Positions 31,360-55,089 of a stretch of 62,122 nucleotides of DNA are shown here, piece after piece. Location of the stretch: assembly GCA_902784965.1 (NCBI GenBank), contig CACZWU010000002.1, forward strand, positions 1-62,122. Reading direction: 5' to 3'. The DNA is from an uncultured Bacteroidia bacterium (GTDB lineage: Bacteria; Bacteroidota; Bacteroidia; Bacteroidales; UBA932). The notes under the pieces were generated by a model. The model was not told the origin of the DNA. It made no database searches and saw only the letters and a program-made list of their open reading frames with translations. How positions within the stretch are numbered: position 1 is the first letter of the stretch; each line of letters starts with the position of its first letter. The position numbers were made by a program, and so were the translations under genes.

Positions 31360-33162
31360 CTAGTTGATTTCGAGTTCAAAGTCCTTTTTCAAGGCGTTGA
31401 ATTCGGGGGAATTCTCCTGCAAATATTTTGCCTTGTCGGAAGGCATGTACATGCCGCGGACGGTTTCTTCGGCTTCCTTGACATCGACGACCAGGCGGAT
31501 GGTCCTGTCAGCGAGCTTCTTCTGGAGGAAGGCTTCCATCCGGGGCCGGCAGTTGCGGTCGATCCATTCTTTCTGGGCGAGGTTACCGACGGTGAAATGG
31601 ATTTCCTGGTCCCGGAGTTCAGGGGTAGCCTGGGCGATGGCCGACGAGAGGCGGGGCATTTTGCTTTCGCTTTCGGCGAGTGCTTTCCAGGCGTCGCTCA
31701 GCTGGGGTACTCCGGGGGCTGCTGCCGGTTCGGCAGACTCGTTCTGTTCTTCCGGTACGTCAGGTCCTTGTTTTGCCTGGGCCATCATCTCCTTGATGGA
31801 CAATCCGGTCGAATGCGTTTTCTTCACCTCCGGCTGGGGCGCTGATGGCTTCGGCTCCGCTGCTCTGATTTCCGTCCCGCTCGCTGAAAAATGCTCGCGG
31901 CTCCGGAAATCACCCGCAGCTTCGCCTTGTGCGGCCTCCGGAGCGCCATCAGGCGCTAGCGTAGGCCGTGAGGGTGAGCCTTGAGGCATAGCAGGCCGGA
32001 GCGGCGGGGTTTGGGGCAGCGCCCCAGTAACACCTTTCCCCAGAGCCCCGGAGCTTGCGCTTGCGAAGTTTGCCGTAATGTTGCAGATCTTCATCAAGGC
32101 AAACTCGATAAGGAGACGGGGGTTGCCCGACTGTTTGTAGGCGGCCTCACAGCCAGATGTGATGCCTAGGGCTTCGAAGAGGAAGCCGACGCTGCAGCGC
32201 CGGGCGTAGTCGCGGTAGCGGGCGGCGACGCTGGGAGCCAGCTCGAGCAGACTCCGCGAAGCGTCGTTCTTGCAGACCAGCAGGTCGCGGAAATGGCTGC
32301 TCAGGCCGCCGATGAAACTCTGGGCATTGAAACCCTTCGAAAGAATCTCGTCGAAGAGCGTCATAGCCTGCGCATAGTCGCCGGCGAGGAAACAGTCGGT
32401 CAGCCGGAAATAGTATTCGTAGTCGAGAACGTTGAGATTCTGGATCACCTGCTCGTAGCTGATCTCCCTGCCGCAGAAGGCAACCGTCTGGTCGAAGAGC
32501 GTCAGGGCGTCGCGCATCGCGCCGTCCGCCTTCTGGGCAATGATGTGCAGCGCGTCGTCACTCACCGTCACACCCTCTTTCGCCGCAATGTCCTTCATGT
32601 TGCGCACCATGTCATCGACGCTGATGCGGTTGAAATCGTAGGTCTGGCAGCGCGAGAGAATCGTGGGAAGGATCTTGTGCTTCTCCGTGGTGGCCAGAAT
32701 GAAGATGGCGTGGGCCGGCGGCTCCTCGAGGGTCTTGAGGAAAGCGTTGAAGGCCTGCTGCGAGAGCATGTGGACCTCGTCGATGATGTAGACGCTGTAG
32801 CGGCCCACCTGCGGCGGGATGCGCACCTTGTCGGTCAGGGCACGGATGTCGTCGACCGAGTTGTTGGAGGCGGCGTCCAGTTCGTGGATGCTGTAGGAAC
32901 GGCCCTCCGCGAAAGAGCGGCACGACTCACATTCACCGCAGGGCTCCAGGTCCGGTCCCGGGTTGGCGCAGTTGATGGTCTTGGCAAAGATGCGGGCGGC
33001 GCTGGTCTTGCCCACGCCGCGCGGGCCGCAGAACAGATAGGCGTGGGCCAGCTGGCCCCGCTCGATCGAGTTCTTGAGCGCCTTCGCGATATTCTCCTGC
33101 CCGAGCAGCGTCTCGAAACTGTTGGGCCGGTACTTCCTGGCAGATACGATGAATTGTTCCAT
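31360..33162 (-). CDS. dnaX: DNA polymerase III subunit gamma/tau with an inserted repeat
   Basis: DnaX is the clamp-loader motor. The 600-residue protein has the AAA+ domain with GPRGVGKTS near residue 48, a zinc module (CANPGPDLEPCGECESC), DEVHMLS and the LSRCQTY sensor. The start MEQFIVSARKYRP is preferred over an upstream in-frame extension. Between domain III and the C-terminal region, about residues 366-437 form an odd proline/alanine-rich stretch (GALPQTPPLRPAMPQGSPSR..., SREHFSASGTE). Part of it (31859-31920) is a stem-loop element also found at 54566-54627. The C-terminal domain continues normally afterwards, so the insertion looks tolerated. Confidence 0.93.
   Translation of the reverse strand: MEQFIVSARKYRPNSFETLLGQENIAKALKNSIERGQLAHAYLFCGPRGVGKTSAARIFAKTINCANPGPDLEPCGECESCRSFAEGRSYSIHELDAASNNSVDDIRALTDKVRIPPQVGRYSVYIIDEVHMLSQQAFNAFLKTLEEPPAHAIFILATTEKHKILPTILSRCQTYDFNRISVDDMVRNMKDIAAKEGVTVSDDALHIIAQKADGAMRDALTLFDQTVAFCGREISYEQVIQNLNVLDYEYYFRLTDCFLAGDYAQAMTLFDEILSKGFNAQSFIGGLSSHFRDLLVCKNDASRSLLELAPSVAARYRDYARRCSVGFLFEALGITSGCEAAYKQSGNPRLLIEFALMKICNITANFASASSGALGKGVTGALPQTPPLRPAMPQGSPSRPTLAPDGAPEAAQGEAAGDFRSREHFSASGTEIRAAEPKPSAPQPEVKKTHSTGLSIKEMMAQAKQGPDVPEEQNESAEPAAAPGVPQLSDAWKALAESESKMPRLSSAIAQATPELRDQEIHFTVGNLAQKEWIDRNCRPRMEAFLQKKLADRTIRLVVDVKEAEETVRGMYMPSDKAKYLQENSPEFNALKKDFELEIN
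31859..31920 (-). repeat. Palindromic stem-loop element inserted in frame in dnaX
   Basis: In the dnaX sense strand, GCTGC-ggg-TGATTTCC, a 31-nt loop and GGAAATCA-ga-GCAGC form a two-step stem. The loop differs by one base from the loop at 54582-54612, while five stem pairs differ by compensatory changes. The surrounding 31850-32065 may be a larger inserted block. Confidence 0.8.
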
Positions 33163-52825: not shown

Positions 52826-54379
52826 ATGGAAAGAAGACGCAGAGTCCGCTTCGCGCCCAGTCCCACGGGCCCGCTCCACATGGGCGGCGTCCGCACGGCG
52901 CTTTACAATTACCTGTACGCCAAACAGACCGGCGGAGATTTCATCCTCCGCATCGAAGACACCGACTCCCAGCGCTTTGTGCCTGGGGCCGAGGAATACA
53001 TCATCGAGTCGCTCCGCTGGTGCGGCATCTTCCCCGACGAGGGCGTGGATGAGAACGGCCAGGTGGTGGAGGTCGCTTCGCCGAAGCATCCCCACGCGCC
53101 GTACCGCCAGTCGCAGCGCCGCGGCATCTACCGCAAATATGCGGAAGAACTCGTCGCCAAGGGCTACGCCTACTATGCCTTCGACACGGCTGAAGAACTC
53201 GCCGCACTCCGCACGGCGGCCGAGGCCGAGAAGAAGACCTTCATCTACAACTGGGAAACGCGGGGTTCGATGAAGAACTCGCTGACGCTCCCGGCCGACG
53301 AGGTGGCACGCCGCGTGGCGGAAGACACGGGCTGGACCATCCGGTTCAAGATCCCGGAGAACCGCATCGTGAAGATGGACGACCTGATCCGCGGTCACAT
53401 CGAGGTCAACAGCAACACGCTCGACGACAAGGTGCTCTGGAAGCGCATCGACGAGCTGCCGACCTACCACCTGGCCAACATCGTCGACGACCACCTGATG
53501 GAAATTACCGAGGTGATCCGCGGCGAGGAGTGGCTGCCGTCGCTGCCGCTGCACTATCTGCTCTACGAGGCCTTCGGCTGGCAGGATTCGCAGCCGCGTT
53601 TCGCGCATCTGTCACTGCTGCTCAAGCCCGATGGCAAGGGTAAGCTCTCGAAGCGCGACGGCGACCGCCTGGGTTTCCCGGTGTTTCCGCTGCGCTGGGT
53701 CAACGCCGAGGGCGAGGTGTCGCGCGGTTACCGCGAGGACGGCTACTATCCCGAGGCTTTCGTCAACATGCTGGCTTTCCTGGGCTGGAATCCGGGCACG
53801 GAGCAGGAGATCTTCTCGCTCGATGAGCTCGTGAAGGTGTTCTCGCTGGAGCGCGTCATCAAGTCGGGCGCCCGTTTCAATCCGGACAAGGCCAAGTGGT
53901 TCAACCAGGAATACCTGCGGATGCGGCCCATCGAAAAGCTGGTGGCCGAATTCCGGGCCTCTGAGGGCGAGCGCATCGCGGCCTTCAGCGACGATTACGT
54001 CGGCGGCGTGCTCGAGCTGATGCGCGAGCGCGTCCATTTCCCCACCGAGTTCCGTGAAGCGACCTGGTTCTTCTTCGAAGCACCGAAGGAATACGATCCG
54101 GCCGCCGTGGCCAAGTTCTGGAAAGACGAGATTCCGGCCATCATTCCGCGGGTGCGCGACTTCATCGCCGGCATCGAGCCATTCACGAAAGAACACATCG
54201 GTGAATCGCTCGAAGGCCTGATCCGCGAGAACGCCTGGCCGATGGGCAAGGTGATGAACACCCTCCGCATCTTCCTCGTCGGCAAGTCGGTCGGCCCCGG
54301 CGTCGCCGAAATGATGGCCCTCATGGGCAAGGCCGAGGTACTGAAACGGATTGACAAAGGGATTGCTTCTTTGACATAA
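52826..54379 (+). CDS. gltX: Glutamyl-tRNA synthetase
   Basis: The 517-residue class I enzyme has RFAPSPTGPLHMGGVRTAL (HIGH motif as HMGG) and GKLSKRDGDRLG (KMSKS motif). The C-terminal anticodon-binding helical domain is complete. It lies at the end of the dcw transcript with a 4-nt gap from ftsZ and is followed by two structured repeats. Confidence 0.96.
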   Translation: MERRRRVRFAPSPTGPLHMGGVRTALYNYLYAKQTGGDFILRIEDTDSQRFVPGAEEYIIESLRWCGIFPDEGVDENGQVVEVASPKHPHAPYRQSQRRGIYRKYAEELVAKGYAYYAFDTAEELAALRTAAEAEKKTFIYNWETRGSMKNSLTLPADEVARRVAEDTGWTIRFKIPENRIVKMDDLIRGHIEVNSNTLDDKVLWKRIDELPTYHLANIVDDHLMEITEVIRGEEWLPSLPLHYLLYEAFGWQDSQPRFAHLSLLLKPDGKGKLSKRDGDRLGFPVFPLRWVNAEGEVSRGYREDGYYPEAFVNMLAFLGWNPGTEQEIFSLDELVKVFSLERVIKSGARFNPDKAKWFNQEYLRMRPIEKLVAEFRASEGERIAAFSDDYVGGVLELMRERVHFPTEFREATWFFFEAPKEYDPAAVAKFWKDEIPAIIPRVRDFIAGIEPFTKEHIGESLEGLIRENAWPMGKVMNTLRIFLVGKSVGPGVAEMMALMGKAEVLKRIDKGIASLT

Positions 54380-54385
54380 CGAATA

Positions 54386-54534
54386 GGATTGCGCTAGCGC
54401 TCTGGGAATTGCTTCTCGGACCGACTCGCAAGCGAGTCTCCTTCCCAAATCAAAGATTTGGGCCCCTCCCTCTATCAACCGAGGGTGGTTAGGGTCCTCG
54501 AAGCAATGTCCCACCCGCGCTTAAAGCGCAATCC
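54386..54534. repeat. Branched palindromic element (cloverleaf-like) after gltX
   Basis: GGATTGCGCT (54386-54395) pairs with AGCGCAATCC (54525-54534). The arms continue inward with GGGA/TCCC and ATTGCTTC-type pairing. Inside are three small hairpins: GACTCGC/GCGAGTC (54423-54438), CCCAAATC/GATTTGGG (54444-54462) and CCCTC/GAGGG (54468-54485). No reading frame is credible here. It could be a mobile palindromic repeat, a structured RNA or the terminator region of the dcw transcript. Confidence 0.6.
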
Positions 54535-54549
54535 TCAACAACGATTGAC

Positions 54550-54640
54550 TGTTTGCTTGCGCAAAGGAGCGGGTGGTTTTTGGAGCCGCGAGCATTTTTC
54601 TGCGAGCGGGACAAAAACCAGAGCTCCCAGCAAGCAAACA
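54550..54640 (+). repeat. Palindromic stem-loop element, intergenic copy
   Basis: TGTTTGCTTGC/GCAAGCAAACA, GGAGC/GCTCC and TGGTTTTT/AAAAACCA form a stepped stem around a 31-nt loop that starts GGAGCCGCGAGCATTTTTC. The same loop, internal-loop bases (ggg/ga) and stem lengths occur in dnaX at 31859-31920. It ends 18 nt before the rpiB ATG. Confidence 0.85.
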
Positions 54641-54657
54641 CCAGACAATAATAGATT

Positions 54658-55089
54658 ATGAAGATTGGACTCGCATCGGATCATGCTGGATATGAGTATA
54701 AGCAGCAATTGATCGCCTATTTGCGGCGGAAAGGCATCTCCGTCGTGGATTATGGAACCCATGGAACGTCGAGCGTCGACTACCCCGACTTCGCGCATGC
54801 CCTCGCTGAAGGTATCGAGAAAGGCGAAGTGGACCGCGGCATCGCCCTCTGCGGCACCGGCAACGGCATGGCCATGACCCTCAACCACCACAAGGCCATC
54901 CGCGCCGGCCTCGCCTGGAACCGCGACATCGGCGCCCTCATCTCGCAGCACAACAACGCCAACGTTCTGGTGATGCCCGCCCGGTTCATCACCATGACCA
55001 TGGCCAAACTGATTACGAAGACCTGGCTCGAAACCCCCTTTGAAGGTGGAAGACACCAACGCCGCATCGAGAAAATACCTTGTGCTTGA
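54658..55089 (+). CDS. rpiB: Ribose 5-phosphate isomerase B
   Basis: The 143-residue RpiB/LacB-family enzyme interconverts ribose 5-phosphate and ribulose 5-phosphate. It has IGLASDHAGYEYKQQL at the start, DYGTHGTSSVDYPDFAHALA and the active-site loop GIALCGTGNGMAMTLN with its cysteine. The truB frame opens inside or just after its end, so the two are probably co-transcribed. Confidence 0.94.
   Translation: MKIGLASDHAGYEYKQQLIAYLRRKGISVVDYGTHGTSSVDYPDFAHALAEGIEKGEVDRGIALCGTGNGMAMTLNHHKAIRAGLAWNRDIGALISQHNNANVLVMPARFITMTMAKLITKTWLETPFEGGRHQRRIEKIPCA

Follow-up and report, generated by a model that had tools for sequence, protein, structure and literature searches.

The most familiar protein-coding palindromes are those of Rickettsia and Wolbachia, and the palindromic elements of Rickettsia use more than one reading frame. 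A sequence-only reading of the 62,122-nucleotide stretch of Bacteroidales DNA analysed here (the window, meaning that stretch at its full length) had noted two covarying stem-loops, one of them inserted in frame in dnaX, had likened them to the Rickettsia elements and had taken them to imply that selection acts on a fixed-loop structure. The accessible portions of three reports concern template switching, which is reported to homogenise the arms of short inverted repeats and to invert their spacer in yeast coding DNA (PMC8604942), has been proposed as creating and maintaining hairpins with compensatory changes (PMC8794818), and has been suggested for the coding palindromes of worm mitochondria (PMC6649704).

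The element in the window is a short dispersed palindromic repeat, confined to one Bacteroidales genus as far as searched. No description of it was found in a literature search by title and start of abstract, in which coverage of subscription papers was thin. With its orthologous, inverted and near-empty sites, this gut-associated genus provides a natural series for the question whether paired changes in such repeats reflect selection or copying.

The window copies and their family

When the sequence was re-read, the two stem-loops were located at 31,859-31,920 on the minus strand and 54,566-54,627 on the plus strand, as originally reported. Their 31-nt centres are identical at 30 of 31 positions, five stem pairs (three in a 9-bp stem and two in a 5-bp stem) differ between them by paired changes, and the dnaX copy is translated in frame (Table 1). 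The near-identical centre had been described as a loop, but it is not open: it holds a 4-bp stem and a 2-3-bp stem, with GA-rich internal loops between them. Pairing of the second copy extends past its original coordinates through a perfect 10-nt outer arm. Fold z-scores of the two stem-loops were -5.8 and -5.0, respectively, and neither was equalled in 200 dinucleotide shuffles; the inner 25 nt of the core matched twice in the window and not at all in 100 window shuffles. In both copies the strand that carries the GA-type internal loops forms the more stable fold of the two strands (-33.5 vs -28.3 kcal/mol for one copy, -32.5 vs -27.6 kcal/mol for the other).

Table 1. Coordinates of the repeat copies and associated features in the window.
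Feature	Position	Strand	Basis and remarks
dnaX (DNA polymerase III gamma/tau), 600 aa	31360..33162	-	NCBIfam PRK14971, 712 bits; element in linker after conserved N-terminal region
Palindromic element, copy 1, in dnaX	31854..31925	-	72-nt match, covariance model R1, 94.3 bits; sense, frame SREHFSASGTE
Central 31-nt core of copy 1, GGAGCCGCGAGCATTTTTCAGCGAGCGGGAC	31874..31904	-	Pattern search of own genome
Second, different dispersed repeat in dnaX linker, KGVTGALPQTPPLRPAMPQG	31927..32058	-	Own-genome protein search; directly upstream of element
Upstream repeat module with small inverted repeats (by eye)	54400..54521	+	Alignment of 9 loci
Outer arm of copy 2, 5' side, locus-specific, GTTTGCTTGC	54551..54560	+	Sequence and fold
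Palindromic element, copy 2	54561..54631	+	R1, 89.6 bits; between predicted genes 52880-54379 and 54658-55089, same strand
Outer arm of copy 2, 3' side, GCAAGCAAAC	54630..54639	+	Sequence and fold; exact complement of 54551-54560

The 1.87-Mb assembly of the same genome contained 16 close copies with at most 3 mismatches to the core, while a reversed-pattern control gave none, and at least 50 copies were recovered with the covariance model. Across the genus, 19 of 40 genomes, this one included, carried the element; none was detected in 246 other genomes drawn from the order, under stricter filters and with 20 candidates scored per genome. The covariance-model search of the genome and its relatives, which had been suggested as a check, returned many further copies, so the possibility that none existed fell away. 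Among 84,980 species genomes, a degenerate form of the core pattern matched 23 stretches. These belong to six assemblies, each entitled Bacteroidales bacterium, and goat reticulum, rumen and red deer are among the sample names. Carriage by viruses, phages or plasmids was considered and rejected: the core pattern was unmatched in viral contigs, and the second window copy had no match in phages and plasmids.

A consensus, GCGnAGCnGCGGGTGGTTTTCGGAGCCGCGAGCATTTTTCTGCGAGCGGGACGAAAACCAGAGCnGCGnAGC, was derived by aligning 34 of the 35 copies recovered by pattern, which come from the own genome and from four relatives; L033, with a disrupted 3' side, was excluded. Standard pairs occupied 90.9% of the 755 alignment cells, compared with 30-44% for slid versions of the structure. 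In the same alignment 75 double-change cells were observed against a shuffle mean of 23, and both-sided changes affected 12 of the 23 stem pairs of the consensus structure. In the more distant copies that the covariance model detected, three boxes are mostly retained, GCGGGTG, apical CGAGCATTTTTCTGCGAG and CCAGAGC; the stems between the boxes, and even the former 31-nt loop, differ among these copies. Internal loops GGG/GA and GA/GA are retained in most copies of A1 and A2. The conserved boxes point to a folded form being recognised at the level of the family.

In the 34 aligned copies the feet of the element follow the consensus GCGNAGC, with N variable; GTAG occurs there in some copies and is not constant. 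d(GCGNAGC) minihairpins are very stable, and the sequence at both element feet resembles them. Over 84 loci, locus-specific complementarity of the flanks 0-15 nt beyond the model exceeded that of mismatched loci (z 5.5, 0 of 200 permutations), and no signal of flank pairing was seen 15-40 nt outside the element. Near-perfect arms, with 17 or 18 of 18 pairs including the usually mismatched centre, were present in 5 of 150 scored copies, of which L280 and L088 are perfect.

Both window copies have other repeats as neighbours. The second repeat of the dnaX linker gave 22 own-genome matches at E values up to 10, 13 of them, including the window copy, at E < 0.003. Upstream of the other copy, a module of approximately 120-140 nt ends in CCACCCGC, which is complementary to the 5' box of the element; positions 54,466-54,561 had 16 own-genome matches, the query included, and 5 of these lay directly upstream of an element among the matches listed. 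A composite transposon made of module and element was rejected on the ground that both repeats also occur apart (5 of 16 modules adjoin an element among the matches listed). Separately, 16 of the 155 elements have CGTC-type palindromes (GATGCCCGGTCAAGCCGGGCATGACG) or their core no more than 120 bp away, for example in the flanks of L023, L103, L280, L228 and L254; when 312-bp stretches were drawn at random from the window, which is mostly coding, the frequency was 0.7%.

Gene context and orthologous sites

Context was analysed for 155 unique copies, which are those in retrieved loci and not every match, two 130-nt model matches having been dropped before counting; genes were predicted with a simple model of codon use for which the window served as training sequence. 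The majority (115) were intergenic, many of them within a few tens of nucleotides of a gene start or end, and 40 lay inside predicted genes, 28 in sense and 12 in antisense orientation. The EHFSA-type frame was used by 22 of the 28 sense coding copies and the EPRAFF-type frame by the remaining 6. When one copy per locus was counted (84 loci), sense exceeded antisense by 36 to 17 where orientation could be assigned (p 0.013), a bias that hints at an RNA-level effect. Host genes include those for DnaX, an aminoacetone-oxidase-family flavoprotein, a rhamnulokinase (by best model, with a score below the cut-off) and a protein that weakly matches NapH-type ferredoxins. Selection for openness in six frames was rejected, because dinucleotide shuffles of the consensus were equally open in 22% of cases and only 39 of the 155 copies are open in all six.

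Three antisense intragenic copies (L125, 1212-1284; L063, 2529-2595; L123, 1618-1691) were located in the last 80 nt of predicted genes, and antisense copies near gene ends may simply extend or replace the C-terminus. The inverted pair in G003 (L119) consists of two separate elements: two reading frames diverge there, and one element directly follows each of them.

dnaX itself was matched in all 40 genomes of the genus. From 30 retrieved loci, 23 linkers were recovered by the gene caller and 7 were not. The element was present in 7 of the 23, six times in sense and once in antisense orientation: the same insert peptide occurs in G000, G052 and G003, the inserts of G017, G053 and G055 are diverged and in the same frame, and that of G007 is antisense. 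The other 16 recovered linkers lack the element, one of them (G042) being ended by the contig end. The stretch is consequently not a feature of all dnaX homologues; its presence in all of them at the same place would have spoken against the sequence-only reading. The filled linker of G003 and the empty one of G023 have closely matching flanks, and no target-site duplication was visible by inspection at this one junction. An interpretation as chance or low-complexity coincidence, or as an old shared dnaX linker, could appeal to the simple composition of this linker in many relatives and to the usual six-frame openness mentioned above. It is contradicted by the shuffle and reversed-pattern controls, which yielded no match, by the distribution over 19 of 40 genomes and by the 16 linkers without the element, and its probability is negligible.

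In the loop of the flavoprotein gene the element was found in G000, G003, G007 and G023, and in reverse orientation in G053 (46 bits). The corresponding loop of G006 is 63 nt shorter than that of G023 and keeps only the 3' arm of the element, a difference that looks like a deletion remnant. Other palindromes occupy the same point in G014, G017, G051, G022 and G052. Those in G014, G017 and G051 (L174, L175 and L181) belong to a different, long type (GGCAGAACC...), are in frame and fold at -49 to -86 kcal/mol, flanks included; the form in G022 (L180) is similar by eye and turned round.

The combination GGGCGGTTTYCGGATCGCGAGCATTTTTTCG (Y = T or C) was found in 4 of the 155 copies, all at one rhamnulokinase site, where it is in sense orientation in G000 and in antisense orientation in G052, G003 and G055. 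This site supports inversion of the centre, although with flanks 74-88% identical between genomes one copy may instead have been replaced by another. Inverted pairs occurred at 11 of the 31 loci found in at least two genomes, and two of these loci hold two oppositely oriented copies, which leaves clean inversions at 9 of 31. Since most orthologous pairs (60 of 85 in the same orientation and 19 of 28 inverted) were less alike than the 95th percentile reached by unrelated copies, copy replacement or re-insertion probably also occurs at orthologous sites. Repeated independent insertion and replacement at permissive sites could even explain inverted and covarying orthologues without any template switching, and would agree with this low likeness and with the other palindromes in the flavoprotein loop. 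It fits poorly with a distinctive rhamnulokinase-site variant that is common to opposite orientations, with locus-specific outer arms and with perfected arms; as a full explanation it is possible, if rather unlikely.

Stem changes, arm copying and the spread of copies

Stem changes were compared between same-orientation orthologues of at least 0.7 identity, with stem pairs taken from the fold of one partner; the 142 directed comparisons include each pair both ways and reuse copies. Double compensated changes numbered 261, against approximately 38 expected under independence (a roughly sevenfold excess), and 83 double changes broke the pair. One-sided changes that kept a G-T pair (98 of 555) were not above an assumed neutral 25-33%. 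Selection for pairing would enrich such changes, which arm copying need not do, and arm copying is therefore favoured. The closest orthologues, with identity of at least 0.9, showed 1 double change and 23 single changes, so that the paired changes may partly come from copies having replaced one another. The boxes are likely to be under some selection, because the internal loops persist although arm copying should erase them. The proposal that selection acts on a fixed-loop structure is thus partly supported, at the family level by the conserved boxes. Against it, one-sided changes at orthologous sites disrupt pairs no less often than expected by chance while double changes are in excess, orthologues are inverted and the loop varies.

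A structured RNA motif selected at each site, such as a hairpin that affects mRNA stability or translation or binds a protein, would be consistent with the covariation, the conserved internal loops, the copies near gene ends and starts and the moderate sense bias. Against such a motif stand the occurrence of both orientations, with 12 antisense copies in coding genes, the inverted copies at orthologous loci and the one-sided changes, which were not filtered for pairing. No Rfam match was obtained for the whole window at the gathering score or for 54,450-54,650 at E values up to 5. A site-by-site RNA function is accordingly regarded as quite improbable.

With a probability of about 0.58, the element is best explained as a dispersed repeat that works like the Rickettsia palindromic elements and in which template switching homogenises the arms and flips the centre. 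Copies would spread, or would once have spread, by some activity that recognises the folded single strand, presumably the one with the GA-type internal loops. Template switching of the replication machinery would then homogenise and sometimes extend the inverted arms, and this arm copying would give rise to the paired changes in the stems, to outer arms that are specific to each locus and to the few hairpins that are nearly perfect. Occasional inversion of the piece between the arms would flip the element. Within genes, a copy would survive only if it keeps the frame, contains no stop and lies in a tolerant linker, for example the one in dnaX, and the encoded peptide would be a by-product. Template switching between arms, without selection on each copy, would yield the excess of double changes, the unfiltered one-sided changes and the inversions, and is favoured on these grounds.

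No transposase or copying activity that could account for the spread was identified. Y1 genes bear on a different explanation, in which a REP-like element is moved in trans by a Y1 (RAYT/TnpA-REP) transposase acting on the folded strand and covariation reflects the need to remain a hairpin. Of the 19 genomes of the genus that carry the element, 18 had Y1_Tnp matches, as did 9 of the 21 that lack it (Fisher p 0.0006, kinship ignored), the numbers of Y1 matches and elements were correlated over 40 genomes (Spearman 0.55, kinship ignored), and conserved boxes with variable stems resemble recognition of a fold. However, copy number does not track Y1 number within the 19 positive genomes (Spearman -0.17), G017, with 8 elements, lacks any Y1 match, and roughly a dozen of 30 Y1 genes have different hairpins of their own on either side. 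The element was absent, at E values up to 1, from all 31 Y1 loci examined (of 68 matches), and a role of Y1 as its flanking partner was rejected for that reason. Position thus gives no support to a trans role for Y1; such a role is possible, and the transposase explanation as a whole is considered unlikely.

The Y1 genes with hairpins of their own (L017, L200, L203-L205, L207, L209, L211, L212, L218, L225 and L226) encode proteins of approximately 305-330 aa; the hairpins on the two sides are similar and, in several cases, have ATTTT-like loops. The accessible part of PMC6006769 describes Y1 proteins of Bacteroidetes with atypical structures at their flanks.

Template switching as the main source of the paired changes invites a further, tentative suggestion, namely that the repeat persists because replication rebuilds it without a dedicated enzyme. 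Template switching would perfect and extend its arms and flip its centre, and coding genes such as dnaX and rhamnulokinase would carry and rewrite an insert of approximately 24 codons in either orientation and in frame; this is possible and still somewhat doubtful. Covariation in such repeats need not signal functional RNA, and inserts derived from repeats can be present in conserved proteins of gut bacteria that have not been cultured.

Comparison with known systems

The likeness to Rickettsia palindromic elements stands for the way of working; the two were likened by described properties. In the accessible part of PMC2229807, the Rickettsia elements are likewise dispersed palindromes, intergenic as well as in frame in conserved protein genes, and the coding palindromes of Wolbachia, known from a reference title in that paper, share the same class of likeness. 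The element matches them in forming in-frame palindromic inserts in conserved genes that are absent from some orthologues, and in its use of more than one reading frame (22 EHFSA-type, 6 EPRAFF-type and 12 antisense copies). It differs in organism group, in length (62-90 nt, vs the 105-146 bp given for Rickettsia in PMC2229807) and in combining conserved boxes with stems that vary freely; the accessible text of that paper does not mention, for the Rickettsia elements, inversions at orthologous loci such as those observed here.

REP, BIME and REPIN sequences are also short hairpins of high copy number, and many intragenic REPs lie in replication and repair genes according to the part of PMC3733652 available. 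Unlike GTAG- or CGTC-tagged REPs, the element has no constant GTAG or CGTC foot, and it is longer than the 20-40 bp given for REPs in the same source (PMC3733652). In REP-RAYT systems copies flank the Y1/RAYT gene, in contrast to 0 of the 31 Y1 loci examined here. MITEs such as Correia, ERIC and RUP are similarly short, dispersed, non-autonomous and sometimes fused into genes, as far as described in the accessible part of PMC2229807; at the few junctions inspected here, neither a target duplication nor a parent transposon was seen.

Template-switch quasipalindromes, as presented in the accessible portions of PMC8604942, PMC8794818 and PMC6649704, share with the element paired arm changes, perfected arms and, as far as the rhamnulokinase site indicates, an inverted centre. 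Concerted arm changes and one-sided changes unfiltered for pairing were found here as well, subject to the biases of the pair test. Those studies deal with coding genes of yeast, with RNA genes and with mitochondrial genes of worms, whereas the present case is a dispersed bacterial coding repeat. Taking these comparisons together, the element is best called a variant of the coding-palindrome kind.
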